Of a stretch of 64,000 nt of DNA, positions 41,077 to 58,386 are shown piece by piece (the first letter of the stretch is position 1; each line of letters begins with the position of its first letter). The stretch comes from Myxococcales bacterium (GTDB lineage: Bacteria > Lernaellota > Lernaellaia > Lernaellales > Lernaellaceae): positions 1-64,000 of the forward strand of contig JAAYVF010000013.1 in assembly GCA_012517325.1 (NCBI GenBank). Reading direction: 5' to 3'. The notes below the pieces were generated by a model that did no database searches, was not told the DNA's origin, and saw nothing but the letters and a program-made list of their open reading frames with translations. A program made the position numbers and the translations under genes.

Positions 41077-41808
41077 TTAGCGGGTATACCCGCCGCTCAA
41101 CCAACGCCAACGAATCCGGGCCAATTCCAGCAGGCTGCGCGGCAAGTCCACCGCCAGGCGAACCTTGGTTTCGGGGTTGTTGGTCCAGACGACTGGAATC
41201 TCGCGGACCGTGAAGCCGAGCCGCAACGCCAAAAAGAGGATTTCCGCATCGAAGCTCCAGCGGTCGATCGCGCTGTGCGCGAACAGTTTTTCGGCCGCGT
41301 CGGCCCGAAACAGTTTGAAGCCGCAGGTGATGTCCGTGAGGCCGGGAGTGAAAAACCGCAAGGTCATTTGTCGAAAGACCTCGCCCAGCATTTTCCGGTA
41401 TTTCGGTTGCGGCACCGGAACCTGGCTTTGATCGGTCTTGCGCGTGCCGATGACGATGCTCGCGCCGGCTTCACCCAGCCGCAGAAATTCGCCGGCCACC
41501 TCGATCGGCACCGACAGGTCGATATCGGTGAAAAGGCGCCAGCGTCCGCGCGCCGCCAGCATTCCGGTTTTCACCGCATAGCCCTTGCCGCGATTGACCG
41601 GCAGGCGGATCAGCGCGGCGTCCGCCCGGCCGCGCAACAGGGTTTCCACCCGGTCCGGCGTGCCGTCGCGGCTACCGTCGTCGACCACCAGCAAATCCGC
41701 CGCCAATCCCGCCGTATCCAAAAAGCGCAACAACGCGGTCAGGCCGGCCTCGAGCCGCCGCATTTCGTTGTAAACCGGAACGATGATGGTCAAATCCGTC
41801 GGGGTCAT
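41077..41808 (-). CDS. Dolichyl-phosphate glucosyltransferase-like GT2
   Basis: A 243-aa family-2 glycosyltransferase. It begins TDLTIIVPVYNEMRRLEAGL and has 'LLVVDDGSRDGTPD' (nucleotide site), 'NRGKGYAVKTGMLAARG', 'FTDIDLSVPIEVA' (DxD) and 'DITCGFKLFRADAAEKLF'. These are features of enzymes that load a sugar onto a polyprenyl phosphate. The ATG at 41808 overlaps the stop of the DUF2723 gene (ATGA), so the pair is co-translated. Polyprenyl-phosphate sugar made here could be the donor for the DUF2723 membrane protein. Confidence 0.9.
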   Translation of the reverse strand: MTPTDLTIIVPVYNEMRRLEAGLTALLRFLDTAGLAADLLVVDDGSRDGTPDRVETLLRGRADAALIRLPVNRGKGYAVKTGMLAARGRWRLFTDIDLSVPIEVAGEFLRLGEAGASIVIGTRKTDQSQVPVPQPKYRKMLGEVFRQMTLRFFTPGLTDITCGFKLFRADAAEKLFAHSAIDRWSFDAEILFLALRLGFTVREIPVVWTNNPETKVRLAVDLPRSLLELARIRWRWLSGGYTR

Positions 41809-44072
41809 TTTCCTTCCGTCGTCGTTGGCTCGACCGGCAATCCGCAATCCTGGCCGAACCGTTTGATGGCCGGATGTCCGGGTTCCAGCCGGCGCAATTG
41901 ATACAAGGTCGCGGCGACATCGCCGCAGCGGTTCAACTGCCGGTAGGTCGCGGCGGTCAGCACCAGGTTTTCCACCCACTGCCGCCGGTTCAGATTGCCG
42001 CGGCGGTGCTGCGCCAACACCGACAGCGCTTCCGCCGGCATGCCGTTGATCAGATAGGCGTGCGCCAGCGAGATCGCCAGATCCAAATTGGCCGGCTGCA
42101 AGGCGAAAGAGCGGCGGTAATCCGCGAGCGATCCTTGCCGGTCCTTGAGGGCGGCGTGCAACTGGCCGCGGTAGTAATAGCACGGCGCGCAGAGCGAATC
42201 CAATTGCAACGCCTCGTCCATCTCGGCCAAGGCGTTTTCATACTGTTTTTCGGCCAGGTACACCAGGCCCAGAAACGAATGATATTCGGCGAAATCGGGG
42301 CGGATGTGCAGCGCCAGCTTGGCTTCGGCCTCGGCCGCCGGCCAGCGCCTAGCGTCGACCTGCAGCTTGGCGCGCAAGTGGAAGGCCCGCGAATAGATTT
42401 CCTGCGCCGTCCAGTCGTAGCCCCGCGGCGCTACCAGCGGGCTGTTCAAGACCGTCAGAAAATATTTGCGCCAGAGATCGCGGTCCGCGGCCGTCTGGAC
42501 GCCATCCCACGGTTCCGCCGCCAACCGGTAGATCACGCCGTGGGGAGTCAGGTTCGCCGGCTCGATCAGCGGCTGCGTCTCCCAGCCATAATCCCAATAA
42601 ACGCCGCCCGGCCCGGCGCTGGCCAGCAGCATGCGTTGCGCGTCGCCCGGCCGGTTCGGATCGTAATCCGCCAATCGCAACGCCGGAAACCGCCGCGCCA
42701 GTTCGTCAGGATACGCCAGCCAGACACGATGAATGAAGCGGACGTCGGGGCGCCATTTCTCGATGAGCTGTTGATAAAACATGTTGTACGCCAGGGCATC
42801 CTGAAATCCGACGAGAATCGCGCCGGTCGGCAGCGAGGCGAGAACGCCGTTGCCGTGCCGTTGCGCGAGATCGTGGGTATGGCGGTCGCATTCCGCCCAA
42901 TTGCGCCCAACACCCCAAACCGCGACGCCCGCCGACAGCAACGCCGCCGCCGCGATCAATCCGGCGGCCCCGGACTTCCCGCGGCGCGTCGCCCATTGCC
43001 CGAGCCGGGCCAACCCCAACCCGCCCAACAACGCTTCCAGCAAAAACAACGGGATGTAGCCGAAGGCGCGGTACCAATCCTTGATGTAAAGGTAGAGGTG
43101 GCCGAAGAAAATCAGGATCACCAACAGCGCCAGGCGCGGCGCGCGCGCCGCCAGCACGCCCAGGCCGATCAGCGCGCCGACGGCGAGGACCGGATTGAGC
43201 TGGTCCCAGAAATGGGAAAACAGGCTCTTCAAATCGAACCCGATCCGCTGCCAGGGAAAATGATGAATGACCCCCGAGTATTTGCGGCCGGTGATCTGCG
43301 CCAGGAAGGCATCCCACGTTTCGGGATTGCCGTAATCGTAGGGCAGACCGGTCGACGAGCGAACCGGCAGATAGGCGAAAACGGCGAACCCCAGAAAAAA
43401 GAAACCGATCATCAGCAGCAGGCCGCGCCACCGGAGTCGCCAACGCGAGCCGACGCAGAGCGCCAGGCCGAACGCTGGCGCGTAAAGGATCTGCACCATG
43501 TGGATGCCGCACGACAGTCCGAGCAGCAAACCGATCGCCGCCGGCCAGCGGTAATCGTCCGCCGCTTGGTAGGCGAGCGCCGCCATCCAGAGCAGGCCGG
43601 CCAACACGGCGGCCTGCAGCGAATAGACCTCGGCGACTTCGCTCCAGGACCAGAACGCCGGCGAAAAGGCGAAGCCCAGGGCCGCGACCGCGCCGAACAA
43701 CCGCGCCGGGACCGGCGCCGCGAAACGCAATGTCTCCAGCCAGGCGACGGCCGCCCGATACAAAAGAAAAACCGCCGCCAGCGCGCCGAGCACGCTCAGC
43801 AGATTGGCGCGCCAGGCCAACGTGGCCAGCGGCAGAAAACTCAGCGCTTTCGACAAGAGGGAAAAAGTCGGCGAACCCGCCGGATGGCCGATGTCGAGTT
43901 GATGGCCGAGCAGGCAGAATTCCATGCTGTCGCGCCAGAAGATACCCGGCGCCATGGCGGCCAGGTAGACGGTAAAAACGGCCAGCCCGCCGGCGATTAC
44001 GGCCGGCCGGTGGAAAGATCGCTGGGTGGAATCGAACAAATGGTTTCCCGCATCCTGCCGGCGCGCCGCCAA
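41805..44072 (-). CDS. DUF2723 membrane glycosyltransferase-like protein with TPRs
   Basis: A 755-aa protein. Residues 25-410 hold about ten membrane helices. The opening 'MAPGIFWRDSMEFCLLGHQL' and 'GHPAGSPTFSLLSKALSFLP' are the DUF2723/TMEM260 signature, a GT-C-type fold that uses lipid-linked sugars. Residues 440-560 are a soluble domain, and residues 575-745 carry TPR units ('AEYHSFLGLVYLAEKQYENA', 'CAPCYYYRGQLHAALKDRQG'). It probably glycosylates exported proteins. The start is uncertain: the frame opens at TTG 44072 without a good ribosome-binding site. The gene for the likely donor-making GT2 follows with an ATGA overlap. Confidence 0.82.
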   Translation of the reverse strand: MAARRQDAGNHLFDSTQRSFHRPAVIAGGLAVFTVYLAAMAPGIFWRDSMEFCLLGHQLDIGHPAGSPTFSLLSKALSFLPLATLAWRANLLSVLGALAAVFLLYRAAVAWLETLRFAAPVPARLFGAVAALGFAFSPAFWSWSEVAEVYSLQAAVLAGLLWMAALAYQAADDYRWPAAIGLLLGLSCGIHMVQILYAPAFGLALCVGSRWRLRWRGLLLMIGFFFLGFAVFAYLPVRSSTGLPYDYGNPETWDAFLAQITGRKYSGVIHHFPWQRIGFDLKSLFSHFWDQLNPVLAVGALIGLGVLAARAPRLALLVILIFFGHLYLYIKDWYRAFGYIPLFLLEALLGGLGLARLGQWATRRGKSGAAGLIAAAALLSAGVAVWGVGRNWAECDRHTHDLAQRHGNGVLASLPTGAILVGFQDALAYNMFYQQLIEKWRPDVRFIHRVWLAYPDELARRFPALRLADYDPNRPGDAQRMLLASAGPGGVYWDYGWETQPLIEPANLTPHGVIYRLAAEPWDGVQTAADRDLWRKYFLTVLNSPLVAPRGYDWTAQEIYSRAFHLRAKLQVDARRWPAAEAEAKLALHIRPDFAEYHSFLGLVYLAEKQYENALAEMDEALQLDSLCAPCYYYRGQLHAALKDRQGSLADYRRSFALQPANLDLAISLAHAYLINGMPAEALSVLAQHRRGNLNRRQWVENLVLTAATYRQLNRCGDVAATLYQLRRLEPGHPAIKRFGQDCGLPVEPTTTEGK

Positions 44073-44203: not shown

Positions 44204-47200
44204 TCATTGGGGCTGTTGCTGCTCTTGGTAGCGCAGCCATTCGCCCTTGTGCTTGCCGAAGATGAACATATAGCTGATGAACGCCTGGTATTCGAAATAG
44301 TCGTTGCTGTTGAGGTCGGCGCCGAAGCCGCCGCCGACGGTCAGGCGGTGCTTCAAGGCGATCTGCCATTCCAGGCTGCCGTAGCCGCTGAGCGAGACGT
44401 TGTCCTCGTCCTTGGCGATTTCGCTGGAGACGATATTGTAGGCCGGCACCAGGCCGACGGTGTAGATGAGGTTGGGCCGGACATCGTCGCGCAAATCGAG
44501 CGAGATGCCGTGGCTCTGGTAAACGTGCGGCGAGAAATAAACGCCGAGCACGCCGGGCAGTTCGTCGTCGAAGGTCTGATAGCTGTAAATGTAGCCGGGC
44601 GTGAAATACGGCCCGTCGAAGAAGGTATAACCGAGCGCGGCGCTGATCAGGTCGGCCTGGTTCTGATCGACCAGCGTGCCGCCGTCGACCCACGTGTGAC
44701 GATACTCGCCGCGGATGTTCATCCGATCCAGCGGCGTGACGCGCAGGACGCCGCCGACGTTGTCGCTGCCGATGCCTTCGCTGATCGCCACGTTCGTCTG
44801 CTGGATGTCGTCGCGGTAGGCGTAGCCTTCCAGGCCCACGTAATCGTAGATGTTGGTTGAGAGTGCGCCCAACCAGTTTTGCGTGGTGGGCAGATCGGAA
44901 TAGCAGTTGACGCCATATTCGCCGCGCGCCGAAACCTCGCCGAACAAGCCGACGACCAGACCGACGCGGGGCGAAACCCGGTTGATCGATTCTTGACGAT
45001 CCTCGTTGTGCCGCGCTCCAACCACTTCACCAAACGCTTCGCCGCCATCGCCGAAGAGATAGGTGAACCGGCTGCCGAGCGAAATCTCATTGTTCCGGCG
45101 GTCGAACCGCCAGGCTTCGCGCCAACCGAGCGTCGTCTCGACGCGCGGCGCCGACTCGTAACGCACGCGGGCCAGGCCGGCTTTCGCGTCCTCGTTGTCC
45201 GGATCGATTTTCGAAACGATTTCGTATTCGCGCCTGGCGCTGGCGAACATCCCCGACTGCAGGTAGATGGCCGCCAAAGCCAGGCGATAGCCGATGTTGG
45301 TCGGATTTTCCTTGACCAGCTTCTCGAAGATGTAGCGCGCCCGCTTGTAGCGGTTGTGCAGCGCCAACTCCTCCGCCAGGCGGAGCCGATAGCGCTGCTC
45401 CGCCTCGTCCATTCCGGGCGGACCCGTGCCGGGCCCGCCGGCCATCATGGTTTTACCGGGGTAGTTGAACCATTGATCGAGGAACGCGCCCTCGACGTAC
45501 TCGATGTTGTAGAGTTTCAGGAAATCGCGCGCTTCCTGGTCTTTCGGATCGACGACGACGATGCGCTTGTACTGGTCGATCGCCGCGTCGATGTTGCCCG
45601 CGCCCTTGTAGGCGTTGGCCAGGCCCTTGCGCGCCCGCATGTTCCAGGGGTCGCGGTCCACCGCGTATTCGAGGTTCACGATCGCGTCGCTGTACGTCCC
45701 CAGCGCGTTGTAGGCCAGGCCCATTTCGAGGCGGATGTTGGCGTCTTCGGGTTTCTTCTGAGCCAAAATCTGGAATTGTTCCAGCGCGGCGCTGTACTGT
45801 TCGGCATACGACAGGTTGAGCGCGTATTGCAACCGGAATTCGTCGTCGTTCGGGTTGTTCGCGACGAGGATTTCGTAGTGCTGCGCGGCGATGGTGTATT
45901 TTTCCTGGAAGGAAGTGATTCGTGCGGCCATTTCGCGCACTTCGTCGTTTTTCGGCTCGACCTGCAACACGGAATTGGCGTGTTCCAGCGCCAGATCCCA
46001 GGTTTTTTCGTCGGCGGCGTACATCTGCGCCAGGTAGTAATGGGCGTCGACGTTGTCCGCCTTGGCGTCCAGCACGGCCTGGAATTCGGCCGCGGCCTTG
46101 TCGTTTTCGTGCTTGGCGATGTAAATGCGCCCCAACATCAGGTGCGCGTCGAGGTTGTCTGGTTCGAGTTGGATCGCGTTGCGATAGGCCTCTTCCGCGT
46201 TGCTGAACTCGCCCCGCTCGTAGAGCAACCGCGCGTACTCCATGCGCGATTCGACGTTCTTCGGGTACTTGAGGAACAGCTTGCGGTACAGATCGATCGC
46301 CCGGTGATAGTACCGCCGGTCCCAACTGTAGAGGTTGGCCAGGGCGAAGCTGGCTTCGAAGTTGTTGGGATCGCGCTGCAGAATGAGTTCGTATTCGCGG
46401 ATCGCGTCTTCCATGCGGTTTTCGTAGCTGAACACCTTGGCCAATTCGATGCGGGCGTCGGTCTGCGTCGGATCCTGCGCCAGGACGACCTGATACTGGT
46501 TGATCGCTTCTTTGTAGCGCTTGTCGTAGGCCAGGGTTTCGGCGAGTTCCTTGCGCACGTCGAGGGCGTCGGGGCGCGCGTTGATGCACCAGGCGTACTG
46601 GTTGATCGCCGCGTTGTACTGCATCGACCAGGCATAGAGCCGGGCCAGGCGGAGGTGCGCCTCGTAATTGTCCGGTTCCTGCTTGATGATTTCGAGCGTT
46701 TCCTTGATGGCCCAGGCGTAGGTCGACGGGCTGTAGGAGAAGATGTCGGCCAGGGCGATGCGCCCGCCGATGTGGTTGGGGCAGTATTGCAGCAACTTGC
46801 GGTATTCGCCCACCGCTTCCTTGTTGCGGTTGTGATTTTGCAATTCCTGGCCCAGCAGATAGCGCAGGTCGCAATTGCCGGGATCGTCCAACAGGATGGC
46901 CTGCATCTGCTGGATGTTGTCGGGATACTCGCCCCAGACGCCGTAGAGGTCGCCCCAGTTGTTGTTGAGCAACCACCAGGCGCGGTGATACTGGCCCGTG
47001 GTGGCGACGTAACGCCGCGACATCAGGTAGTGGTTGTAGGACAGTTCGGCGAAGGCGTTGAGGTTGCTCGGATCGAGTTCGAGCACCTTTTTCTGCATGG
47101 CGATGGCGCGTTCGTACCGGCCGTTGCGGCGGTCGATTTCGCCCAGGCCGTAATAGGCCTCGGCGCTGTCGGGGTTGCTGGAGAGCACTTCGCGGTACTC

Positions 47201-49510
47201 GACCACGGCGCGGTCGTAATGTTCCTGCAGGCGGTAGATCGTCGCGATGCCCAGGTGGGCGTGCGAGTTTTTCGCGTCGGCCTGCAACACGGTGCGGTAT
47301 TCCTTTTCGGCCAGCTCGAAATTGTTGGCCACCTGATAGGCATTGGCCAGGGCGAGCCGCGCGTTGATGTTGTCGGGGTTTTGCGTCAACACGTCGCGCA
47401 GTTCGGTGACCACTTCGTCGGCGCGGCCGGAATAGACCTTGGTCTTCATGGTTTCGAGGTAGAGATCCTGGTCGTTGGGCCGGTTCTTCAGCACTTCCTC
47501 GTAAACCACCAGGGCCTCGTCGTATTTCTCGCTCCAGGAAAGCACGCGCGCCTTGAGCAGGCGGGTGTCGTCATCGGCGGCGTCGCGTTCGAGGATGAAA
47601 TCGCACTCGCGGACCGCCTTCTCGTAGTACTTGCGGTTCTGCGAATACAAATTAGCGAGGCGGCGGTGCAGGTCCAGGTCGGTGAAGCGCAGCGCGACGG
47701 CCTTTTCGAGGGCCTCGATCGCTTGGGAAACATCTTGCTGGTAGGCATAGGCGTCGCCGAGCCCGCCGAGGATTTCCGCGTTGGTCGGATCGATCTGCGC
47801 GGCGCGGCGAATGGCGTCGACGGACTTCTGCGGGTTGCCCATCTGCCCGTAGACCCACGACATGCCGAGGTAGGCGTCGACGCAGCGCGGATCGATTTGC
47901 AGCGCTTTTTCGTAGGCGTCGATCGAGCTTTTGTAAGCCTTGTGCTGAGCGTAGACATCGGCCAGCCGCAATTGCGGTTCCGGCGAATCCGGATATTTCT
48001 CGGCCGCGTCGGTCAGCAGGCTGATGGCCTTGTTGAAATGCCAGACCTCGTTGGCGCTGACGTAGAGATAATGGATGCGGTCGATGACGGCCAGGAACTG
48101 TTTCTGGATTTCGGCCTGTAGTTTCGAGCCTTGATCCTGGCGGTACAGGCTGTATTGATGATGCGCCCAGCCGACACCGATCATCGCCGGCAGATAGGTC
48201 GGCTTGTCGTCGAGGATGTCCTCGTACAATTCCAACGCGTCCTTGTGCTTGCCGGCGGCGCTCAGCGTTTCGGCCATGAGCAGCCGGGCATCGACGTCGT
48301 CGGGCACCACGCCCAGCAGGTTGCGGGCCTCGGCGATGGCGTTGTCGTAATCCTTGACCTTCAACAGCGCGCGCACCAGGGAGGTGCGGACCTGCACGTC
48401 CTCGGGGTGCTTGGCCAGCAGGTCGCGGTATTGTTCGACCGCCAGTTGCATGTTGTTCGATTCGGCGTAGATGTTGGCCAGTTCGGTGCGGATTTCCACG
48501 TTGTCCGGCTGGCTTTTCAGCACTTCGCGGTACGCGGCGACCGCCTCGGGATAGGTGGCCGCGTTCTGCGCGTAGTTGCGGGCGAGGAAGATCTTGGCGT
48601 CGATGTCTTCCGGATTGAGTTCGATGGCCTTGTTGAACGCCTCGGCCGCTTCGGTGGTGCGGCGTTGTTCGGCCAGAATGAGGCCCTTCAACCGCCAGGC
48701 GAACGCGTTGTTCGGTTCTTTTTCCAGCACGACATCGGTGACCGCCATGGCGTCGGCATACCGTTTAGCCTGGTAGTAGGCCTGGGCGAGCCCCAGCAGG
48801 CTCTGATCGCGGGCGCCGCGTCGGCTGCTGAGGTAATTGAACTGCTGTATGGCGTCGTCAAAGCGCTTGGCCATCGACAATTCGTTGGCGTATTCCAACC
48901 GGATCTTGTCGTCTTCCGGATCAATTTCCAGGTAGGCCTCGTAGTTTTTCAAGGCCGGAGTGTGTTCACTCTTGTACGAGTAGACGCGGGCCGCGATCAA
49001 ATGGGCGCGCTTGTTTTTCGGTTCCTTCTGCAAGACCTTTTCGATCTGTTCCAACGCTTTCGGATAGGTATCGGCCTTCCAGGAATAGATTTCGGCCAAT
49101 TCGGTCATCGCTACGGTATTTTCAGGTTCCTTTTCCAGCAGGGTGTCCAACTGTTTGACGGCGTTTTCGGTGTCACCGGACCACGAATAAATTTGGGCGA
49201 GACGCAGGCGGGTGACGCCATCCTTGGGGTCGGCTTCCACGGCTTTGCGATAGGCTTCGATCGCGATTTTGGCGTATTCGGGCTTTTCTTCGGAATAAAG
49301 GTTGAAGTAGCAATCGCCGAGGCGTTTCATCGCCTCGAGATTGGTCGAATCTTGTTCCAGGGCCGCTTGAAAACGCGCCGCGGCCGCCTGGTATTGGCCT
49401 TTATTGAAAAGCGAAATGCCCTCTTCATACGCCCCAGCCCACGCGTGGCCGGCGCCAAGCGCCAATCCCAGCAAAACCACGGTGGCCAGGGCCATCCAGC
49501 GTCTGTTCAT
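44204..49510 (-). CDS. TPR/beta-barrel exopolysaccharide export protein (BcsC/PelB-like)
   Basis: A 1768-aa protein, the last gene of the exopolysaccharide operon. The signal peptide is residues 1-25 (AWA-G). Residues 26-1440 are an almost unbroken chain of TPR units, well over 30, of the type 'DAYLGMSWVYGQMGNPQKSV' and 'NIRLEMGLAYNALGTYSDAI'. The last about 320 residues change to alternating beta sequence ('NEISLGSRFTYLFGDGGEAF', 'GDGGEAFGEVVGARHNEDRQ', 'HRLTVGGGFGADLNSNDYFE', 'AFISYMFIFG'), which fits a C-terminal outer-membrane barrel. BcsC, PgaA and PelB share this plan but are 800-1200 aa, so the scaffold here is unusually long. It starts 68 bp after the GH8-like gene. The strand prediction is by eye. 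Confidence 0.85.
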   Translation of the reverse strand: MNRRWMALATVVLLGLALGAGHAWAGAYEEGISLFNKGQYQAAAARFQAALEQDSTNLEAMKRLGDCYFNLYSEEKPEYAKIAIEAYRKAVEADPKDGVTRLRLAQIYSWSGDTENAVKQLDTLLEKEPENTVAMTELAEIYSWKADTYPKALEQIEKVLQKEPKNKRAHLIAARVYSYKSEHTPALKNYEAYLEIDPEDDKIRLEYANELSMAKRFDDAIQQFNYLSSRRGARDQSLLGLAQAYYQAKRYADAMAVTDVVLEKEPNNAFAWRLKGLILAEQRRTTEAAEAFNKAIELNPEDIDAKIFLARNYAQNAATYPEAVAAYREVLKSQPDNVEIRTELANIYAESNNMQLAVEQYRDLLAKHPEDVQVRTSLVRALLKVKDYDNAIAEARNLLGVVPDDVDARLLMAETLSAAGKHKDALELYEDILDDKPTYLPAMIGVGWAHHQYSLYRQDQGSKLQAEIQKQFLAVIDRIHYLYVSANEVWHFNKAISLLTDAAEKYPDSPEPQLRLADVYAQHKAYKSSIDAYEKALQIDPRCVDAYLGMSWVYGQMGNPQKSVDAIRRAAQIDPTNAEILGGLGDAYAYQQDVSQAIEALEKAVALRFTDLDLHRRLANLYSQNRKYYEKAVRECDFILERDAADDDTRLLKARVLSWSEKYDEALVVYEEVLKNRPNDQDLYLETMKTKVYSGRADEVVTELRDVLTQNPDNINARLALANAYQVANNFELAEKEYRTVLQADAKNSHAHLGIATIYRLQEHYDRAVVEYREVLSSNPDSAEAYYGLGEIDRRNGRYERAIAMQKKVLELDPSNLNAFAELSYNHYLMSRRYVATTGQYHRAWWLLNNNWGDLYGVWGEYPDNIQQMQAILLDDPGNCDLRYLLGQELQNHNRNKEAVGEYRKLLQYCPNHIGGRIALADIFSYSPSTYAWAIKETLEIIKQEPDNYEAHLRLARLYAWSMQYNAAINQYAWCINARPDALDVRKELAETLAYDKRYKEAINQYQVVLAQDPTQTDARIELAKVFSYENRMEDAIREYELILQRDPNNFEASFALANLYSWDRRYYHRAIDLYRKLFLKYPKNVESRMEYARLLYERGEFSNAEEAYRNAIQLEPDNLDAHLMLGRIYIAKHENDKAAAEFQAVLDAKADNVDAHYYLAQMYAADEKTWDLALEHANSVLQVEPKNDEVREMAARITSFQEKYTIAAQHYEILVANNPNDDEFRLQYALNLSYAEQYSAALEQFQILAQKKPEDANIRLEMGLAYNALGTYSDAIVNLEYAVDRDPWNMRARKGLANAYKGAGNIDAAIDQYKRIVVVDPKDQEARDFLKLYNIEYVEGAFLDQWFNYPGKTMMAGGPGTGPPGMDEAEQRYRLRLAEELALHNRYKRARYIFEKLVKENPTNIGYRLALAAIYLQSGMFASARREYEIVSKIDPDNEDAKAGLARVRYESAPRVETTLGWREAWRFDRRNNEISLGSRFTYLFGDGGEAFGEVVGARHNEDRQESINRVSPRVGLVVGLFGEVSARGEYGVNCYSDLPTTQNWLGALSTNIYDYVGLEGYAYRDDIQQTNVAISEGIGSDNVGGVLRVTPLDRMNIRGEYRHTWVDGGTLVDQNQADLISAALGYTFFDGPYFTPGYIYSYQTFDDELPGVLGVYFSPHVYQSHGISLDLRDDVRPNLIYTVGLVPAYNIVSSEIAKDEDNVSLSGYGSLEWQIALKHRLTVGGGFGADLNSNDYFEYQAFISYMFIFGKHKGEWLRYQEQQQPQ

Positions 49511-49578
49511 AGCCGTACCCCCAACACCATAGCCGGCGCCCCGCGCTCGCCCGGCGGCGGCGCACCAGCGACCCGAAA

Positions 49579-50694
49579 CTACCTGTACTCCGCGTTATAG
49601 CGGCGCAACGTCAGCAGCGCCTCCAGATTGTCGAAACTATAAACCTCGTCATCGCTGAAACCGCCGTACATCGGCGAGATCGGATTGACGTTTTGAAATT
49701 CCAGCAATTTGGCGAGCAGCGACTCGCCCAGCGCCCGATCGCCGATGCGAAATGCGTAACGCGCCGCCAGCGCGTAGACGCTCGTCGATTCAAAAAACTG
49801 CAACGGCTGCCCGCTGCCGTCGTACTGCGCGTACAGCACTCCGTCGGCCGCGAACCGGTTGCGCAACCATTCGGCGAACGGATGATCGCCCTGTTCTAAT
49901 TCAGCGGCGAAAAGAGCGCAATAGAGCTGGTTGATCATGTTCTGCTGGTCGCCCATGTAACGCTTTTCCGCGAAATTGTAGTTCTCGTAAAACAGCCCGG
50001 ACGCCATCCGCCCGGCGAGCAGGATCCGGCCCGTTTGTTCCAGAATCGGTTGCCATTCCGGGGCGCGTTTGGCCAGCGCTCGCAGCGTCGGAATTTCGAT
50101 ATACGACAACTGCAGGGTGTCGGCCACCACCGGATCGCCGTAATCCCGCCAGTTCAGGAAATCGCGCAATACGCCTCCCACGACCTCGTATTGCCAAATA
50201 TTGCCCGCGATATCGTCGGCGAAACTGCGATAGGCGGCGTCTCCCCATTTCTCCGCCGCCTGCAACGCCGCGCCGACGATGCGCAAATCGTCGATCACCG
50301 CCGACGTGCCGGCCACCAGCTCGCCGTCGTAACTGACCTTCCAGTAAAAGAGCCCTTGCGGCCCCAGCATCTTCTGCCGGGCGAACTGCAATTGCTTATC
50401 AAAAAATGGCCGATCATCGGCCAACACCGCGTATTGCATCGCCAAACCGATCGTTTCGGACAGCACGCCCGAGGCCAGCAGATCGGCCGGGTCGAAAATC
50501 GGGAACAACAACAACCGCCGGACCTTGCAGTTGGTCAGGATGCCGCCGTTCGGCCCGCTCATGCGGTCCAGCACGAACCGCTTCGCCAGTTCCTCGGCTT
50601 TCGACGGCGAGATGGCCCACGGAAACGCCATCAAGCCTCCCACGCCGACCAGTGACAACAACACCAACCCGGCGACCAGGCGTCCGCGCCGCAT
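49579..50694 (-). CDS. GH8-like glycosidase of the exopolysaccharide operon (YdaJ/BcsZ-like)
   Basis: A 371-aa protein with an N-terminal signal or anchor segment (residues 6-24). The two GH8 landmarks are visible: 'SETIGLAMQYAVLADD' with E80 as candidate general acid, and 'SAVIDDLRIVGAAL' with D135/D136. The rest is alpha-helical ('QLYCALFAAELEQGDHPFAE', 'ALLTLRRYN'), consistent with an (alpha/alpha)6 barrel. Enzymes of this type (BcsZ, YdaJ, Listeria PssZ) trim the nascent polymer. Its ATG abuts the stop of the GT2 gene (TAAATG), with AGAGGACC as the ribosome-binding site inside that gene, so they are translated together. Confidence 0.82.
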   Translation of the reverse strand: MRRGRLVAGLVLLSLVGVGGLMAFPWAISPSKAEELAKRFVLDRMSGPNGGILTNCKVRRLLLFPIFDPADLLASGVLSETIGLAMQYAVLADDRPFFDKQLQFARQKMLGPQGLFYWKVSYDGELVAGTSAVIDDLRIVGAALQAAEKWGDAAYRSFADDIAGNIWQYEVVGGVLRDFLNWRDYGDPVVADTLQLSYIEIPTLRALAKRAPEWQPILEQTGRILLAGRMASGLFYENYNFAEKRYMGDQQNMINQLYCALFAAELEQGDHPFAEWLRNRFAADGVLYAQYDGSGQPLQFFESTSVYALAARYAFRIGDRALGESLLAKLLEFQNVNPISPMYGGFSDDEVYSFDNLEALLTLRRYNAEYR

Positions 50695-52026
50695 TTATAG
50701 GTCCTCTTCGCGCAATTCCCGCATGCGGTCGCGACTGACCTGTTTGTCTTCCTGCTGCTGGCGCAAACGGTAACGGACGGTTTTGTCCCAGACCGTGCCG
50801 GAACCGCGGCGCCACTGCAGGAATTCCATGTACAAAGCGCGGAACACGACCACGATCCACACCTGGGAATACGTGATGTACATGAGGAAGGAAAAGACAA
50901 TGTTGGTAAAGCTCTCTTCTTCCTCGATGCTGATCGCGATCAGCAGTTCCATGAAAAACAGCATCGCCGCGAGGAACCAGATGAAGGTGAAGGGACCGAC
51001 CAGGCCCAGCTTCACCACCCCCAGCAGCGACAACAACGCGATGGCGTCGGAGAGGATCAACGCGATGAAAAACATGTAGTAGAGGCTGAACATGTAGAAG
51101 AGGTCGACCATGATGCGCCGGTTTTTCATCTGGAACGCGACGCGCAGGAATTTGCGGATGATGTAGTGCATGCCCTGGGCCCAGCGGGTGCGCTGGCGGA
51201 TGAACACCTTGAGCTGCTGGGGTTCCTGTTCCCAGGTGACCGCGTAGGGGATGAACTTGATGCGGTAGCCCAGTTCGTAGAGGCGGATCGACAGCTCGGC
51301 GTCTTCGGCAATGGCCTCTTCGTCGAAACGGCCGGCTTTCTCGAGCACCTTGCGCCAGATCACGTAGTTCGTGCCCGGCAGGGTGGCGAGGTTGAAGATC
51401 TTGTAGCGGCCGCCCTGGATGATCCATTGGAAGGAGATAAATTCGATGTTGATGAACCGGGTGAGAATGTTCTGCTTGGCGTTGATCGTGCGCACCTTGC
51501 CCAGGACCGCGCCGAGTTTCGGGTCGTTGACCAGGTTGGCGACCAGATAGCGCAACGAGTTGGGCTCGGGGCGGTTGTCGGCGTCGAAGATGCTGATGAC
51601 GTCGCCCATGGCGTGTTCCAGGCCCACGTTCAGCGCCCGGCTCTTGCCCTTGCCGCCCTCGCCCTGCGGAATGTTCACCAGTTTCACGTTCCGGTAGCGC
51701 TCGGAAATGCTTTCGACGATCTCCGCCGTTTCGTCGGTCGAACCGTCGTTGACGACGATGACCTCGTACCGTTCGCGTGGATAGTTGAAGGCGAGCATCG
51801 CTTCGATGGTGCGCCGGATGACCACGCCTTCGTTGTGCGCCGGAATCAGGATTGAAACGAAGGGGAACGGGAACGGTTCTTGGAAGAGTCGTTGCCGCTC
51901 TTTTTCGCTGTTCAAGTGATGGATGAAGGCGAAGAAGGTCAGCACGACGTTGAACAGCAGGAACAGCCAGATGCCGATCGCCGACGCCAGAAAGAGCAGG
52001 TCGATGTAAACACTGGTATACGGCAC
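50695..52026 (-). CDS. Processive GT2 polysaccharide synthase (YdaM/PgaC-like)
   Basis: A 443-aa inner-membrane synthase. One N-terminal helix (about 10-36) and about four C-terminal helices (305-415) flank the catalytic domain. The hallmark residues are all present: 'VVNDGSTDE' with D94, D148-A-D150 in 'SIFDADNRPEP', E241-D242 in 'AIAEDAELS' and Q278-R-T-R-W282. The QxxRW motif marks processive enzymes such as cellulose, PNAG and hyaluronan synthases. No PilZ domain is attached, so regulation must come from a partner, probably the degenerate GGDEF protein two genes upstream. The start is GTG at 52026, preceded by GGAAGGGGG. Confidence 0.93.
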   Translation of the reverse strand: MPYTSVYIDLLFLASAIGIWLFLLFNVVLTFFAFIHHLNSEKERQRLFQEPFPFPFVSILIPAHNEGVVIRRTIEAMLAFNYPRERYEVIVVNDGSTDETAEIVESISERYRNVKLVNIPQGEGGKGKSRALNVGLEHAMGDVISIFDADNRPEPNSLRYLVANLVNDPKLGAVLGKVRTINAKQNILTRFINIEFISFQWIIQGGRYKIFNLATLPGTNYVIWRKVLEKAGRFDEEAIAEDAELSIRLYELGYRIKFIPYAVTWEQEPQQLKVFIRQRTRWAQGMHYIIRKFLRVAFQMKNRRIMVDLFYMFSLYYMFFIALILSDAIALLSLLGVVKLGLVGPFTFIWFLAAMLFFMELLIAISIEEEESFTNIVFSFLMYITYSQVWIVVVFRALYMEFLQWRRGSGTVWDKTVRYRLRQQQEDKQVSRDRMRELREEDL

Positions 52027-52031
52027 GGCGC

Positions 52032-54059
52032 TTACCCCCTTCCCCGGGCGCGCAGGACGTTGCGGAATTCCTGCGTCGCCTTACGGCTGAGGAGGAAGAT
52101 CCAGATGACCAGGAACACGATCAAGATCGCCAGGCCGACGAACAGCAGGAAAATCGCGATCGGGTTGGTGATGCCCGAAACGGCCGGCCGGAACTTGGTG
52201 ATGTTTTTAAACGTATAGGGAGGCGCCGTGTACGCGCCTTGATAGACCTGGATTTCGCCCTGGTGCGTCGAGGCGAACAGACTGACGTTGCCGGTCACGG
52301 GACGGAAAGAGTAGGTCTCGTCGGTCCGTTTGCCGTGCAGGTCAAGCGTCATGCTCTTCAGGTATTGGCTTTTCAGGGTGAGATCGATCTGCCCCACGCC
52401 GCTGATCGCCACGGTGTCTTCGGTCCGGACCTTGTTGTTGAAATCGCGGAGGTCGACCCATTCGTAACCCAATTTGCCCATGCCTTCGACGACGTCTTTC
52501 AGCAGTTGCAGGTCGAGGAAGGTATGAAAAAAGAAACTGCCCCAACCGTCGCGCACCACCAGGCTGTTGTCGGCGTCTTGCAGGATGGCCGCCGCGTCGC
52601 GACCCGCCGCCGGCTGAATATAGCCGAGGTTTTCGGGCAGAATGATCTGCTGGTGCATGTCGCGATAAATCACGTAGGGGAAGAATTGATCGGATCCCAG
52701 TTTGTCGATCGGCTGCCGCCGTTCGACCACCGTGGTGAAATAATTGTGCAAAGACTCGTAATCGACCTGCCCGGCGGCATAGTGCGGCGTGGTCCAGGCC
52801 AACGGGAAAATATCGGCCAGGAAGCATTCGGACAACCCGCGCAACGCCCGTTCGGCCGCGTATTCCGGCCCTTGGGCGATCGGCACATCGGTATCGGTGG
52901 CCCAGAACTCGTAGTCCACCGCCGATTCGCCGGTATGCTGGTGCGTATAGCCGTGGAGGATCGGCGTCCCCCCGCGGTTGATCAGGCCGCGAACGACCTC
53001 CAGGAATTCGGGCGAGCTGCTCAGGTATACGGTCTGATCGGTGGCCGGGTTCACGTATACCGGCACCAAGGTGAAGGAGAACGGCACTTTCTTGCTTTGC
53101 AGGTAGTCGGCCGCGGCGATCAAATCGGTGCCGTTACGCATGGCATGAACATCTTCCAGCCGCACGAAGCCCGGGTGTTTGGCTTCTTTGATGCCGGAAG
53201 ACATCATGTCATGCAGCACGTCGCAAAACGCCAGGTAGGCGCCGCCCTCGACGTTGTAAGAGAAGGGATTGGAAGCGACGTACCAGAATTTCTTGCCGCG
53301 GACGACCCAGGGCAACCGTTCTTCTTTCGAAATTTCGGGCTTCGGTTCCGGGGTCGGTTGCGGCAGCGGTTCGATATCGAAGTTCAGCTTCGGATCGAGC
53401 GGCGGCATGGACAGCGCCGTCAAGTCGGCCTCGGTCGGGGCCGGTTGGCCGGCATGGATCACTTCCGGACCGTACATTTCATTGTGGCCGGAAGGCGGTT
53501 TGGCGCTCGGATCGGCGATCGCCCAGGCCACGACTTGATCGATTTCCGGGTTGACCACCTCGACCGCGTAGGTATGCGTATCGAGCTTCCACAACGATTT
53601 CTTTTTGTATTCAACCCGGTTGGTCGGGTGATTGTCGGTATCGTCGATCTGACGCAGGCCGAAGGATTCGAGGTTGTGCCGCGCCGCCATGCTGTCGAGA
53701 TTCGCCCCGATCCAGATCAGTTCGCCCTTGCGGAAAAACAGGTCGTCGAGCAGATAGGTCGGCAGGGTCATGTCATCCTTGGTGCCGACGTAGAAGATGA
53801 TGTCGTATTTTTTCGCCTGGCCTTCTTTGTATTCGCCGGTGCTGACCAGGTCGATTCCGGCCGTTTCGAAATGCCCGAGCAACTGGCGCAGCATGAGGGC
53901 GTCCAGGCTGTCTTGCTGGACATGGGCGGGATCGGGTTCGTCGAAAATGACCAGCGTCGCGCGGCCGCCGCTCAGCATCCCTTTCAGCGGGAGAAGCCAA
54001 AGCGCCACCAAGACCGCTAAAAAGAATGCAACTATCGGTAAAACCAATCGCCTTAACAC
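52032..54059 (-). CDS. Membrane-anchored DUF2334 polysaccharide deacetylase (YdaL-like)
   Basis: A 675-aa protein. An N-terminal helix (residues 5-25) and a C-terminal helix (about 640-663, 'AIFLLFVGLAILIVFLVIWI') hold a periplasmic body. Residues 35-230 resemble a flavodoxin-like or GATase-like unit ('RATLVIFDEPDPAHVQQDSL'). Residues 255-560 are DUF2334: 'KHPGFVRLEDVHAMRNGTDL' with a metal-type Asp, 'FTLVPVY' and 'ILHGYTHQHTG' with the paired His. The family is related to NodB-type deacetylases and suggests that the polymer contains N- or O-acetylated sugars. The GTG at 54059 has only a weak ribosome-binding site. It lies 5 bp before the synthase gene. Confidence 0.88.
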   Translation of the reverse strand: MLRRLVLPIVAFFLAVLVALWLLPLKGMLSGGRATLVIFDEPDPAHVQQDSLDALMLRQLLGHFETAGIDLVSTGEYKEGQAKKYDIIFYVGTKDDMTLPTYLLDDLFFRKGELIWIGANLDSMAARHNLESFGLRQIDDTDNHPTNRVEYKKKSLWKLDTHTYAVEVVNPEIDQVVAWAIADPSAKPPSGHNEMYGPEVIHAGQPAPTEADLTALSMPPLDPKLNFDIEPLPQPTPEPKPEISKEERLPWVVRGKKFWYVASNPFSYNVEGGAYLAFCDVLHDMMSSGIKEAKHPGFVRLEDVHAMRNGTDLIAAADYLQSKKVPFSFTLVPVYVNPATDQTVYLSSSPEFLEVVRGLINRGGTPILHGYTHQHTGESAVDYEFWATDTDVPIAQGPEYAAERALRGLSECFLADIFPLAWTTPHYAAGQVDYESLHNYFTTVVERRQPIDKLGSDQFFPYVIYRDMHQQIILPENLGYIQPAAGRDAAAILQDADNSLVVRDGWGSFFFHTFLDLQLLKDVVEGMGKLGYEWVDLRDFNNKVRTEDTVAISGVGQIDLTLKSQYLKSMTLDLHGKRTDETYSFRPVTGNVSLFASTHQGEIQVYQGAYTAPPYTFKNITKFRPAVSGITNPIAIFLLFVGLAILIVFLVIWIFLLSRKATQEFRNVLRARGRG

Positions 54060-54084
54060 GCTGTTAGTCCCAATCCTCGAAAGA

Positions 54085-54942
54085 CTATTTCAATTGCTGA
54101 TAACGGGAATCGACGACGTCAATCAGCTCTTCGAGATTGCCGGCGTCCTTCGGATAATTCGCGCGACTGTACTCGAATTCCAGATTGATTTCATCCCACT
54201 TCTTCTTTACATGAACTCGCAAATCGGCGATCCTTTCCTCCAACCGGGCGCAGACTACGTTTACACCCGCGATTCCCGTCTCCGGCAAAACCACGCCGAT
54301 TTCATTGTCGCTGTATTTCCCCACGTAATCGGCCTCGCGCAACATCCCGCGGAACAATTGGCCGATTTCTCGGAAGAGCATGATTTCCTGTTGGTAATCG
54401 TAACGCTTTTGGAAACTGTCGAGGTTGACGATTTTCAGGAAGATCAATGAGAGTGGAGTATTGTATCGTTTGACGCGCCGCATTTCGCCACGCAGCATCC
54501 AACGGAAGCTTTTAAAGTTATAGAGGCCGGTTTCCTCGTCGGGCACGAAGGTCTCGACGATCGTGGCTTCCTCGCGGAACGGTTCCGAGCGACGGAAATG
54601 GAGGAACTCCATGACCAGGCCGACGACAAACCCGCTGCCGACGATCACTGTGATGTTGATCAGTTCGTTGCGCAGCAGGCTTTCGCCCAGCCCGCTCTGG
54701 AAAAGTTGCCCATAGAGAAGCTTGGTGCCGTAAATCGCCGCGCCGATAACCGCCGCCAAGGCACCATGACGAAAACCCTTGGCGACCGCGAACAACACCA
54801 CCGGCAGGGAAATGAAAAACGCGAGCCGGTATCCGGTTTTAATGTCGAACCACTCCAGGAACACCACCGAGGCGATGAGACCCACGACGAGGATGACGAG
54901 CAATTCGCGAACGTCGATATTTTTTTTACCGGTTTCGTTCAT
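54085..54942 (-). CDS. Membrane protein with degenerate GGDEF domain (YdaK-like c-di-GMP receptor)
   Basis: A 285-aa protein. Residues 13-115 hold about four membrane helices. Residues 133-285 are a GGDEF-type domain ('PDEETGLYNFKSFRWMLRGE', 'LSLIFLKIVNLDSFQKRYD'). The active-site loop reads S211-D-N-E-I215 instead of GGDEF, so synthesis of c-di-GMP is not expected. The inhibitory I-site R202-E-A-D205 is retained at the canonical spacing of five residues. This combination is typical of c-di-GMP receptors such as YdaK in Bacillus and PelD in Pseudomonas. It probably activates the synthase at the inner membrane. Its ATG overlaps the stop of the 67-aa gene. Confidence 0.88.
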   Translation of the reverse strand: MNETGKKNIDVRELLVILVVGLIASVVFLEWFDIKTGYRLAFFISLPVVLFAVAKGFRHGALAAVIGAAIYGTKLLYGQLFQSGLGESLLRNELINITVIVGSGFVVGLVMEFLHFRRSEPFREEATIVETFVPDEETGLYNFKSFRWMLRGEMRRVKRYNTPLSLIFLKIVNLDSFQKRYDYQQEIMLFREIGQLFRGMLREADYVGKYSDNEIGVVLPETGIAGVNVVCARLEERIADLRVHVKKKWDEINLEFEYSRANYPKDAGNLEELIDVVDSRYQQLK

Positions 54943-55142
54943 AGATCTCTATCCTCCTCATCGAGCAATTCCTGGTGCCGGCGTTTTTTCTCGATGGCCA
55001 TATTGCGAACCCGACGACGCCATAAAAACAAGATGACGTCGCGAGCCAGGATGATCAGTGAGATCAATGCCACCACGACGACCACGATGACCGCCATGAT
55101 GATCATCGAATTGTTAAAACAGAAATCCACACAAGTCTCCAT
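54939..55142 (-). CDS. Small membrane protein, first gene of the exopolysaccharide operon
   Basis: A 67-aa protein. A short N-terminus with C4 and C8 is followed by one long hydrophobic segment (residues 13-40, 'IIMAVIVVVVVALISLIILA') and a highly charged cytoplasmic tail ('RRRVRNMAIEKKRRHQELLD'). The ATG at 55142 has AAGG upstream. The last four bases (ATGA) overlap the degenerate GGDEF gene, so the two are co-translated. I do not recognise a family. It may stabilise the synthase complex. The 211-bp AT-rich spacer upstream separates it from the divergent wecB and must contain the operon promoter. Confidence 0.78.
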   Translation of the reverse strand: METCVDFCFNNSMIIMAVIVVVVVALISLIILARDVILFLWRRRVRNMAIEKKRRHQELLDEEDRDL

Positions 55143-55353
55143 TTAGCCTTAACAGGTCATGAACGCTTGAATGGTATAGTTTCGCCGCCACCAACTAAAT
55201 ACCAACTGCGAATGGTTGTAAAGAGAAATTTTGAATTTTCGTATCAAAAAAATGAAAATAAAAAAAGAATGGAAATCAAGTCTTTTTAGATAGTTTCTTC
55301 CAAAAAGCTGTGTTAAAACTTGACAGATTTTGCTCAATTCGCTTGGAGACCAG

Positions 55354-56454
55354 ATGATTCGCTCATTATTTGTCTTCGGGACGCGTCCGGAAGCCATCAA
55401 ATTGGCGCCGCTCGTGCTGGAAATGAACCGCCGTGCGGCTTTCACCCCCTTGGTCTGCGTCACCGCCCAGCACCGGCAGATGCTGGACCAGGTTCTGGAT
55501 CTGTTTTCCATTCGTCCGGAATATGATCTGAACCTGATGAAACCCGGGCAGACGCTCGAACAGATACTCGCCGGCGTTTTCGATCGTCTCCCAGCCGTCC
55601 TGGAAGAAGCCAAACCCGATCTGGTCATCGTTCAGGGCGACACGACTACGACCTTCGCCGCCGCGGAGGCTGCCTTCTGCCGAAAAATCAAAGTCGGTCA
55701 TGTCGAGGCCGGGTTGCGGACCAACAACCGCTACTCGCCCTTCCCCGAAGAAATCAATCGCCGCCTGACCAGCGTGCTGACCGACTTTCATTTCGCGCCC
55801 ACCGAACAGAACCGGGACAATCTACTGTCGGAGGGCTTCCCCGCCGATCGGATCTGGGTCACCGGCAATACCGTGATCGATGCGCTGCAAATCGTCGCGG
55901 CCCGTCCCTATGAATGGCAAATCCCGGAACTGGCCGACCTGCCGGGACGGTTGATCCTGGTGACGGCTCACCGTCGCGAGAGCTTCGGCGAACCGTTCCG
56001 CGATCTCTGCCGCGGCCTGGCCGAAATCGCCCGCCGCAATCCACGGGATACCGTCGTTTATCCGGTCCACCTGAACCCGAACGTTCGCCGCCCGGTCGGC
56101 GAAATCCTGCAGGGTCTGGACAACATCCGCCTGGTGGAACCGCTGTCGTACGAACCGTTCGTGCACCTGCTGAAAAAAGCCTATCTGGTGCTGACCGACT
56201 CCGGAGGGATCCAAGAGGAGGCGCCCGGGTTGGGCAAGCCGGTGCTGGTCATGCGGGAAACCACCGAACGGCCCGAGGGCGTCACCGCCGGAACCGTCAG
56301 ACTCGTCGGCACCGCGACCGACCGCATCGTCGCCGAGGCATCCCGCCTGTTGGACGATCCGGCCGCTTATCAAGCCATGGCTCAGGCGAAAAATCCCTAT
56401 GGCGACGGCACGACCAGCCGGCGGATTTGCGAGATCCTCGAAAAGAATTGGTAG
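55354..56454 (+). CDS. wecB: UDP-N-acetylglucosamine 2-epimerase (non-hydrolysing)
   Basis: A 366-aa cytoplasmic enzyme that interconverts UDP-GlcNAc and UDP-ManNAc. The signature is complete: 'FGTRPEAIKLAPLV', 'CVTAQHRQMLDQ', 'VIVQGDTTTTFAAA', 'GHVEAGLRT', 'PFPEEINRRLT', 'VTGNTVIDAL', 'VTAHRRESFG' and 'LTDSGGIQEEAPGLGKPVLVMRETTERPEG'. The ATG at 55354 has TGGAG upstream; a TTG at 55330 is rejected. It is divergent from the exopolysaccharide operon and may share its control region. That suggests, without proving it, that ManNAc or a ManNAc-derived sugar is used in the polymer. Confidence 0.96.
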   Translation: MIRSLFVFGTRPEAIKLAPLVLEMNRRAAFTPLVCVTAQHRQMLDQVLDLFSIRPEYDLNLMKPGQTLEQILAGVFDRLPAVLEEAKPDLVIVQGDTTTTFAAAEAAFCRKIKVGHVEAGLRTNNRYSPFPEEINRRLTSVLTDFHFAPTEQNRDNLLSEGFPADRIWVTGNTVIDALQIVAARPYEWQIPELADLPGRLILVTAHRRESFGEPFRDLCRGLAEIARRNPRDTVVYPVHLNPNVRRPVGEILQGLDNIRLVEPLSYEPFVHLLKKAYLVLTDSGGIQEEAPGLGKPVLVMRETTERPEGVTAGTVRLVGTATDRIVAEASRLLDDPAAYQAMAQAKNPYGDGTTSRRICEILEKNW

Positions 56455-56460
56455 GCGCGG

Positions 56461-58386
56461 TCAGTTGATGTAGCCCAATTCCTTCAACCGCTGCAGGCGA
56501 GTTTCGTCCAGGCTGATCGAACCGGTATGCCAGGCGCCGTATTTTTTGATCTGCTCGCCCACGAACTTTTCCATCGTTTCCTGCAATTCGGCGGCTTTTT
56601 CCGGTTGCCCGCTCATCAGGTCCGTTTTTTCGGCGCGGTCGGCGAAGTCGAACAAAAGCGGCGGATGGATGTTGTGGTGATCGCCGTAAATGTAATCGCC
56701 GGCGGTCATAAAGCGATACGTTCCGTCGCGCCAGGCGTAACGGTGATTGCCGAACGCGTTGGTGTGGCCGTAAGCGACGCCGCGCGCTTCGATGGCGCGC
56801 CAGTCGCGTTGGAGCGGATCGGCCACGCCGGCCAGGGAAAGAATGAGCGGCGCCAGCATTTGCTGGTCCGCCGTTTGGGTGCGCACCTCGCCCCGCGGCA
56901 GGTTGAGGCCGGCCAGGATCAACGGCACGTGCAGGCTTTCCTCGTACAATTCGACGGAATGGCCGGTCCAGCCGTGTTCGAAAAACTCCTCGCCGTGGTC
57001 GCTGGTGACGATCACCAGGGTGTTTTTCACGTCGAACCTTTGGGCGATGTACTTCAACAACGCGCCGATCGCCCGGTCGCTGTCGCGCACGTCGCCGTCG
57101 TACAGCAACCGGACCGCGTCCTTTTCTTCCTGGTTGTAGGGCAGGTAAATGTCGATGAACTTGTAAAGCAGGTGGGTCATCGTTTCCAGGACCTTCTGAA
57201 TGTCCGGCCCGTAGATGCCCAGTTCGTCGCGCGATTCCTTGGACGGCCGATACGGCAGGTGCGGATCGAAATAATGAACGAAGCCGAACCAGGGTTCGCG
57301 GGCCTGATCGACCAGACTCGCGGCGCCGCGCGTCACTTCCGCCGCGATGCCTTCGGGCTTGAAGAGGAAGCGGTCGAACCCGCGCCCGAATCCGTAGGGC
57401 GGGCTGACCAGGAAATTGCTGGTCATGGCCCAGGTATGATAGCCCGCATTCTTGAATATTTCGGCGAGCAACGGCGCTTCCCGCGGGATCGTGCGATCCA
57501 GCGAATAGGTGCCGTGCACGTCGGTCAGCATGCCGGTGAGCATCGACACGTGGCCCGGCAGCGTCCAGGGAGCGATCGAATAGAAATTTTCGTACTTGAC
57601 GCCATTGGCGGCCAGCGCGTCGATGATCGGGCTGGTCGCCCGCGGATTTCCGTAACAATGCAGGCCGTCGGCGCGTAACGTATCGATGCTGATCAGAAGC
57701 ACGTTCGGAACGCCCTTCGGCCGGCCCAGCAGCGACGGCAAGAGAACCAGACCGAGGATCACCGCCAGCGTCACTGCGACCGGCACCGCGGACCGGCGCG
57801 TCATGGCGAGTGACGGAACGCGGCGGAACGGCGTTTCCGGCAGGCGTTTGCGCAGCAGCCGGTAAAGACCGAAGCCCACCCCGAAGGGAATGGCCAGACT
57901 GAGGAAAAGGATGAACAGCACCAGGCCGGGGCGAATGTCGATGGTGAACGACACCAACGGCCAGATGAACCGGGAAAAGAAGATTTTCGGCGTCACCTGC
58001 TCCTGGTAGGGCAACGGCAACTTGGTGCCCAAGCTGGATAGGAGGCGCAGCGCCCCGATGCCGAGCATGCCCAGCCACACCAGCAGCATGAACCCGAAAG
58101 TCATCACGGCCCGCCGACCGCTGCCGGTCAACAACATCAATAGAAATCCATAGATCGCGATCACCAGCCCGGAAATGACTCCCCAGACCAGGCAGTCGCC
58201 GATATCCCGCGATAGCGTTTCCAACGCCAGCCGCGTCAGGCCGAACGGAAACGCCGCCGACTGGAAAATATCCACCAGGCCCTGAATCAAACCCACCACC
58301 GCGCCGGACAGGATTCCGAAGGCCAGGAAACTCGCCGTGGCGGGAAGCAATTTGACCACCGTGGCAGACCAAGTTGAACGGCTCAT
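56461..58386 (-). CDS. Sulfatase-like membrane enzyme (Thr nucleophile)
   Basis: A 641-aa protein. Residues 10-220 hold about five membrane helices. Residues 226-641 are an alkaline-phosphatase-superfamily domain: 'NVLLISIDTLRADGLHCYG' (metal D235), 'APWTLPGHVSMLTGML' with T275 in the nucleophile position, 'HYFDPHLPY', 'VIVTSDHGEEFFEHGW' and 'ELYEESLHVPLIL'. Sulfatases carry Cys or Ser here (CxPxR). The Thr and the missing Arg favour a phosphoglycerol- or phosphoethanolamine-transferase-like or related hydrolase activity on the outer face of the membrane. The ATG (58386) overlaps the stop of the upstream paralogue by 4 bp. Confidence 0.85.
   Translation of the reverse strand: MSRSTWSATVVKLLPATASFLAFGILSGAVVGLIQGLVDIFQSAAFPFGLTRLALETLSRDIGDCLVWGVISGLVIAIYGFLLMLLTGSGRRAVMTFGFMLLVWLGMLGIGALRLLSSLGTKLPLPYQEQVTPKIFFSRFIWPLVSFTIDIRPGLVLFILFLSLAIPFGVGFGLYRLLRKRLPETPFRRVPSLAMTRRSAVPVAVTLAVILGLVLLPSLLGRPKGVPNVLLISIDTLRADGLHCYGNPRATSPIIDALAANGVKYENFYSIAPWTLPGHVSMLTGMLTDVHGTYSLDRTIPREAPLLAEIFKNAGYHTWAMTSNFLVSPPYGFGRGFDRFLFKPEGIAAEVTRGAASLVDQAREPWFGFVHYFDPHLPYRPSKESRDELGIYGPDIQKVLETMTHLLYKFIDIYLPYNQEEKDAVRLLYDGDVRDSDRAIGALLKYIAQRFDVKNTLVIVTSDHGEEFFEHGWTGHSVELYEESLHVPLILAGLNLPRGEVRTQTADQQMLAPLILSLAGVADPLQRDWRAIEARGVAYGHTNAFGNHRYAWRDGTYRFMTAGDYIYGDHHNIHPPLLFDFADRAEKTDLMSGQPEKAAELQETMEKFVGEQIKKYGAWHTGSISLDETRLQRLKELGYIN

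Follow-up and report, generated by a model that had tools for sequence, protein, structure and literature searches.

The window analysed here, i.e. the whole 64,000-nucleotide stretch of DNA, carries a six-gene operon that is likely to specify a c-di-GMP-activated machinery for a partly deacetylated polymer of the poly-ManNAc type, in which a core as found in the Yda and Pss systems is combined with a channel resembling PelB, BcsC and PgaA. We infer the functions of all parts from gene order, homology, conserved residues, a barrel prediction, co-occurrence and the absence of particular families. Read in this way, the operon extends the type of EPS known from Listeria, Bacillus and Clostridioides to a two-membraned phylum that is known from metagenome bins only; a description of exactly such a gene set was not found in the open-licence literature.

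The six open reading frames are tightly packed on the minus strand between 44204 and 55142 (Table 1). The first two genes overlap at 54939-54942, the synthase and glycosidase genes abut at 50695/50694, and the other intergenic gaps measure 25, 5 and 68 bp, so that the ORF coordinates agree with the six genes, the overlap and the abutment that an earlier note on this DNA had reported. Pfam searches recovered GGDEF (1.5e-14), DUF2334 (3.6e-41), Glyco_tranf_2_3 (2e-35), Glyco_hydro_8 (6e-9) and 19 stretches of TPR_19. The same genes, with their order kept and with similar lengths, are present in five of the seven genomes of the phylum that were examined, namely that of the window (a 5.2-Mb bin of 134 contigs) and G002, G004, G005 and G006, the last of which has frameshifts that break four of the five larger operon genes. 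Because both genes and order recur in these four further genomes, the set is not a product of chance; the neighbours of the operon mostly differ between these genomes. The downstream neighbour in the window (41805-44072, minus strand), for instance, encodes a TMEM260-like O-mannosyltransferase (PF11028) with TPRs, for which no counterpart adjoining the operon was found in the relatives.

Table 1. Positions of the operon genes and of associated features in the window
Feature	Position	Strand	Remarks
Small membrane protein gene	54939-55142	-	67 aa; ORF
Degenerate-GGDEF gene (YdaK/PssE-like)	54085-54942	-	285 aa; PF00990
DUF2334 deacetylase gene (YdaL-like)	52032-54059	-	675 aa; PF10096
GT2 synthase gene (YdaM-like)	50695-52026	-	443 aa; Glyco_tranf_2_3
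GH126 glycosidase gene (PssZ/YdaJ-like)	49579-50694	-	371 aa; PDB matches and family residues
TPR exporter gene	44204-49510	-	1768 aa; TPR families, barrel prediction
Predicted exporter beta-barrel	44261-45145	-	residues about 1456-1750; 16-17 strands, AF2
wecB, non-hydrolysing UDP-GlcNAc 2-epimerase	55354-56454	+	TIGR00236 5.7e-147; ATG at 55354, GGAG upstream
Divergent intergenic region operon/wecB	55143-55353		211 bp; expected to hold both promoters

The largest product of the operon has a signal-like N-terminus, followed by a very long TPR scaffold (19 two-unit TPR_19 stretches). An AF2 model of its last 430 residues places 16-17 strands after the TPRs, albeit at low confidence (mean pLDDT 60, pTM 0.52), and when the barrel was compared with 350,542 PDB chains the top five matches were PelB, BcsC, BcsC, PgaA and BcsC, with modest TM-scores of up to 0.50. 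The protein is thus a predicted outer-membrane exporter that has a TPR scaffold and a C-terminal barrel in common with BcsC, PgaA and PelB, and that would export the polymer made by the operon. It differs from these exporters in that its scaffold is about twice as long and in that it has no match to their sequence families (PF05420, PF13283); family searches likewise revealed neither BcsC_C nor NfrA_C in the class. The barrel region is confined to the five operon-bearing genomes among the seven examined. An NCBIfam match of the TPR protein to PrsT of the XrtA/PEP-CTERM system (434 bits, cut-off 312) was judged to be repeat-driven and was set aside. The proposal in the earlier note that the operon has its own outer-membrane exporter is supported by these fold matches to EPS exporters. 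The TPR protein does have a (low-confidence) predicted barrel, BcsB is missing genome-wide (see below) and PelG (PF16933) is absent from the class. In G001, a genome of the same family that lacks the synthase operon, a 1009-aa TPR protein (L153:7293-10322, minus strand) is colinear (32%) with exporter residues 1-988 and stops before the barrel; its gene is divergent from wecB at exactly the position that the operon has in the window, and the protein appears to be either a remnant or a scaffold put to another use.

The synthase shows the motifs VNDGS, DADN, AED and RQRTRW of the processive GT2 type. In a tree in which some outgroups sit on long branches, it groups with the YdaM proteins of Firmicutes and Elusimicrobia (support 93/97), apart from NfrB, PgaC and BcsA, and on sequence grounds we consider it a YdaM-like processive GT2. 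Its best NCBIfam match is to PgaC/IcaA (181.7 bits, below the cut-off of 422), which brings up a divergent pga system that makes PNAG-like poly-GlcNAc, with the TPR-barrel protein as PgaA, the DUF2334 protein as PgaB, the synthase as PgaC and the small membrane protein as PgaD. The same classes of parts are indeed present, and PgaA is among the top fold matches of the barrel. Nevertheless, the synthase clusters with YdaM and not with E. coli PgaC, and a GH126 enzyme and a degenerate-GGDEF receptor (both discussed below) are foreign to pga. Moreover, Listeria PssC also resembles IcaA/HmsR most closely (about 30% identity, PMC4125290), and the Pss EPS nevertheless contains ManNAc. We therefore regard a pga system as unlikely.

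The glycosidase had been labelled GH8-like in the earlier note, a label that has to be replaced. Its PDB matches are CPF_2247 (3REN, 1.4e-38) and PssZ (6R2M, 2.5e-22), and it carries the five residues by which family GH126 is defined, two of them being unique to that family (PMC7479077): E80, D135, R138, Y198 and Y307, invariant in an alignment of eight sequences. Given the matches and the full signature, an identity as GH8/BcsZ was discarded, and the sequence identifies the protein as a GH126 enzyme of the PssZ/YdaJ-like kind, either membrane-anchored or exported. Among 18 genomes searched for other Gram-negative carriers of GH126 together with YdaL/YdaM, a single one (Myxococcales) had GH126, and there it occurred alone. 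The succession of GT2, glycosidase and TPR-barrel genes mirrors E. coli bcsA-B-Z-C, weak matches to PF01270/BcsZ were obtained and BcsC is prominent among the barrel matches, all of which would fit a cellulose-like beta-glucan system with BcsA, BcsZ and BcsC counterparts. We hold such a system to be very improbable, as BcsB occurs in no genome of the class, PilZ was not found in the six proteins, the CelA score of the synthase is 106.6 bits against a cut-off of 699, the glycosidase belongs to GH126 and a deacetylase would be useless on a glucan. The likeness in gene order may be convergent.

Control by c-di-GMP is suggested by the membrane-anchored GGDEF protein, whose active-site motif is degenerate (SDNEI) and whose RxxD I-site is intact (READ), five residues upstream of SDNEI. 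All four intact orthologs have the RxxD motif, as does Clostridial YdaK. The same arrangement is found in B. subtilis YdaK, where RxxD lies five residues upstream of SDERI and where the substitutions R202A or D205A abolish EPS (PMC5422440); the I-site of Listeria PssE binds c-di-GMP with a Kd of 0.79 uM (PMC4125290). The protein thus looks like a c-di-GMP receptor of the YdaK/PssE kind with a dead active site, through which c-di-GMP would activate synthesis of the polymer. The first gene of the operon encodes a protein with a single TM that has no family match above the curated cut-offs in Pfam and NCBIfam searches, although counterparts of 58-85 aa occupy the same place in G002, G004, G005 and G006; it is perhaps an assembly or regulatory subunit.

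The YdaL-like DUF2334 protein was modelled with AF2 at good confidence (pLDDT 86.6, pTM 0.82) as an N-terminal TM, an alpha/beta domain, a CE4-like barrel, a beta-sandwich and a C-terminal TM helix. PDB fold matches of the model include acetylxylan esterase, ArnD, PgdA and IcaB, and the residues R300, E302, D303, H369 and H373 are invariant among 32 homologs. The model hence points to a CE4-fold deacetylase with a conserved metal site that is anchored at both ends, and that would deacetylate the polymer in part. Several further DUF2334 paralogs without the synthase operon occur in the phylum (G000:C9:348-1745, i.e. L009, and L033-L041). In Elusimicrobia (L043-L047, e.g. L044:9845-13897) YdaL continues into a fused C-terminal part of about 700 aa that ends in a TM helix and that has neither a Pfam match nor detectable similarity to YdaN/BcsB; these fusions adjoin YdaM and, in three loci, wecB as well.

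None of the seven genomes of the phylum has a match to BcsB (PF03170), while the E. coli and B. subtilis controls were matched. The remark in the earlier note that the system lacks an obvious BcsB/YdaN subunit accordingly holds for the whole genome, but the lack is not special to it: PF03170 is also missing in 12 Bacillus-type genomes with YdaL-YdaM and in three Elusimicrobia, Halopseudomonas and Variovorax with YdaL-type genes, and it is present in three Clostridia. Since these YdaL carriers do without BcsB and the Clostridia have it, BcsB appears to be optional in YdaL-YdaM systems. A hidden YdaN/BcsB homolog was sought in the YdaL of the window and in the C-terminal part of Elusimicrobial YdaL and was dismissed (hhalign probability at most 0.3%); nor was BcsB among the fold matches of the window YdaL model. 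We tentatively put forward, as a possibility that we ourselves doubt, a BcsB-free two-membrane poly-ManNAc machine in which the doubly anchored YdaL holds the chain at the synthase exit, i.e. does the job of BcsB, and hands it over to the long TPR scaffold.

The identity of the sugar is suggested by wecB, which the earlier note, right about the six genes, had missed next to the operon, and which points to ManNAc. The gene is a single copy in the genome of the window. In that genome (G000), as in G002, it is transcribed away from the operon, and the region between the two in the window shows no sigma-70-like consensus and no Rfam match, riboswitches included. A YdaL scan of 84,980 genomes yielded 80 DUF2334 loci that were kept (1.38 Mb of DNA), of which 32 contain wecB, where less than one copy would be expected by chance at the rate of about one copy per 5 Mb seen in the phylum. 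The linked loci span Bacillota, Actinomycetota, Elusimicrobiota, Pseudomonadota and others, and in eight loci of the Bacillus type the immediate neighbours of wecB are YdaM on one side and GH126 on the other. Furthermore, the Pss polymer of Listeria consists of beta-1,4-linked ManNAc with galactose (PMC11439720), and an EPS that is rich in ManNAc and deacetylated in part has already been proposed as the product of a C. difficile cluster that encodes WecB and a CE4-like deacetylase (PMC7710045). On the basis of the linkage, Listeria Pss and the C. difficile proposal, a ManNAc polymer is our best guess: WecB is the probable supplier of UDP-ManNAc, and it is fairly likely that UDP-ManNAc is the substrate and ManNAc the sugar of the polymer.

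It could also be that the polymer is real and WecB an accidental neighbour, the substrate being a different UDP-HexNAc, for example UDP-GalNAc. Of the five genomes that carry the operon, three (G004, G005 and G006) have wecB away from it, and both operon-less genomes possess wecB as well, which implies that the gene has other uses. In the window two sulfatase-family membrane proteins are encoded beyond wecB (56461-60260, minus strand), and wecB lies beside a sulfatase gene in G004, G005 and G006 too, a pairing that seems to be old. In addition, the Yda EPS of B. subtilis is recognised by a lectin for alpha-Gal/GalNAc (PMC13274460). Against an accidental presence stand the recurrence of the linkage to DUF2334/YdaM across many unrelated phyla, as in the C. 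difficile cluster, and the ManNAc nature of Listeria Pss, so that we grant this alternative a small, though appreciable, chance.

In the preferred ManNAc reading, WecB would make UDP-ManNAc, and c-di-GMP bound at the I-site of the YdaK-like receptor would cause the YdaM-like GT2 to polymerise the sugar, the chain crossing the inner membrane. Once in the periplasm, the chain would lose some of its N-acetyl groups to the YdaL-like CE4 deacetylase, which is tethered to the membrane, and would be trimmed by the GH126 enzyme. The 1768-aa protein would then lead it along its TPR scaffold and out via the C-terminal barrel, like BcsC, PgaA and PelB.

The view of the operon as a Gram-negative counterpart of yda/pss, as put forward in the earlier note, gains support from the YdaM clade, the PssZ-family glycosidase, the YdaK/PssE pattern and the barrel. 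With Yda (B. subtilis ydaJKLMN) and Pss (Listeria pssA-E, pssZ) it shares the GT2, the DUF2334 protein, the degenerate GGDEF with its I-site and the GH126 enzyme, i.e. all components of a strict definition except YdaN/PssD, which is itself not universal. It differs in that the genome lacks the BcsB-like YdaN/PssD, in that its YdaL is anchored at both ends and in that the long TPR-barrel outer-membrane exporter and the small membrane protein are added. The C. difficile cluster (YdaK-YdaL-YdaM-BcsB-glycosidase-WecB; PMC7710045) has the same core genes and WecB but includes BcsB and a GH113-type glycosidase, and lacks GH126 and an outer-membrane exporter. Bacillus-type YdaL-YdaM-WecB-GH126 clusters (e.g. 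L084, L104, L119) share the core, WecB, GH126 and the absence of BcsB, whereas their hosts have a single membrane and their loci contain no exporter and no YdaK match. The hallmarks of cellulose (BcsA with PilZ, and BcsB), PNAG (a PgaC score above cut-off) and Pel (PelG) systems were not found.

Taken together, the comparison suggests that the core of such systems consists of YdaL and YdaM, usually joined by WecB and often by GH126, that BcsB and YdaK are optional and that an exporter is added where an outer membrane exists. It predicts a partly deacetylated ManNAc polymer for several phyla and offers a natural comparison of how synthase-dependent secretion adapts to one versus two membranes.

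The closest functional Gram-negative parallel is the Nfr/NGR system of E. coli (nfrA, nfrB, wecB), which likewise has a c-di-GMP-controlled GT2, a TPR-barrel exporter and a need for WecB/UDP-ManNAc (PMC8669469, PMC8669472). NfrB, however, has its own MshEN domain and belongs to another clade than the synthase of the window, no DUF2334 or GH126 is reported for Nfr/NGR, and NfrA_C is absent from the class, which places the window system outside Nfr/NGR. Two loci recovered in the scan, one from Halopseudomonas (L062:9956-19621) and one from Variovorax (L067:3638-9783), encode a DUF2334 protein, an NfrA-type TPR barrel, a DUF4434 protein and WecB, the former also an NfrB-like GT2; these are Nfr systems with an added deacetylase.
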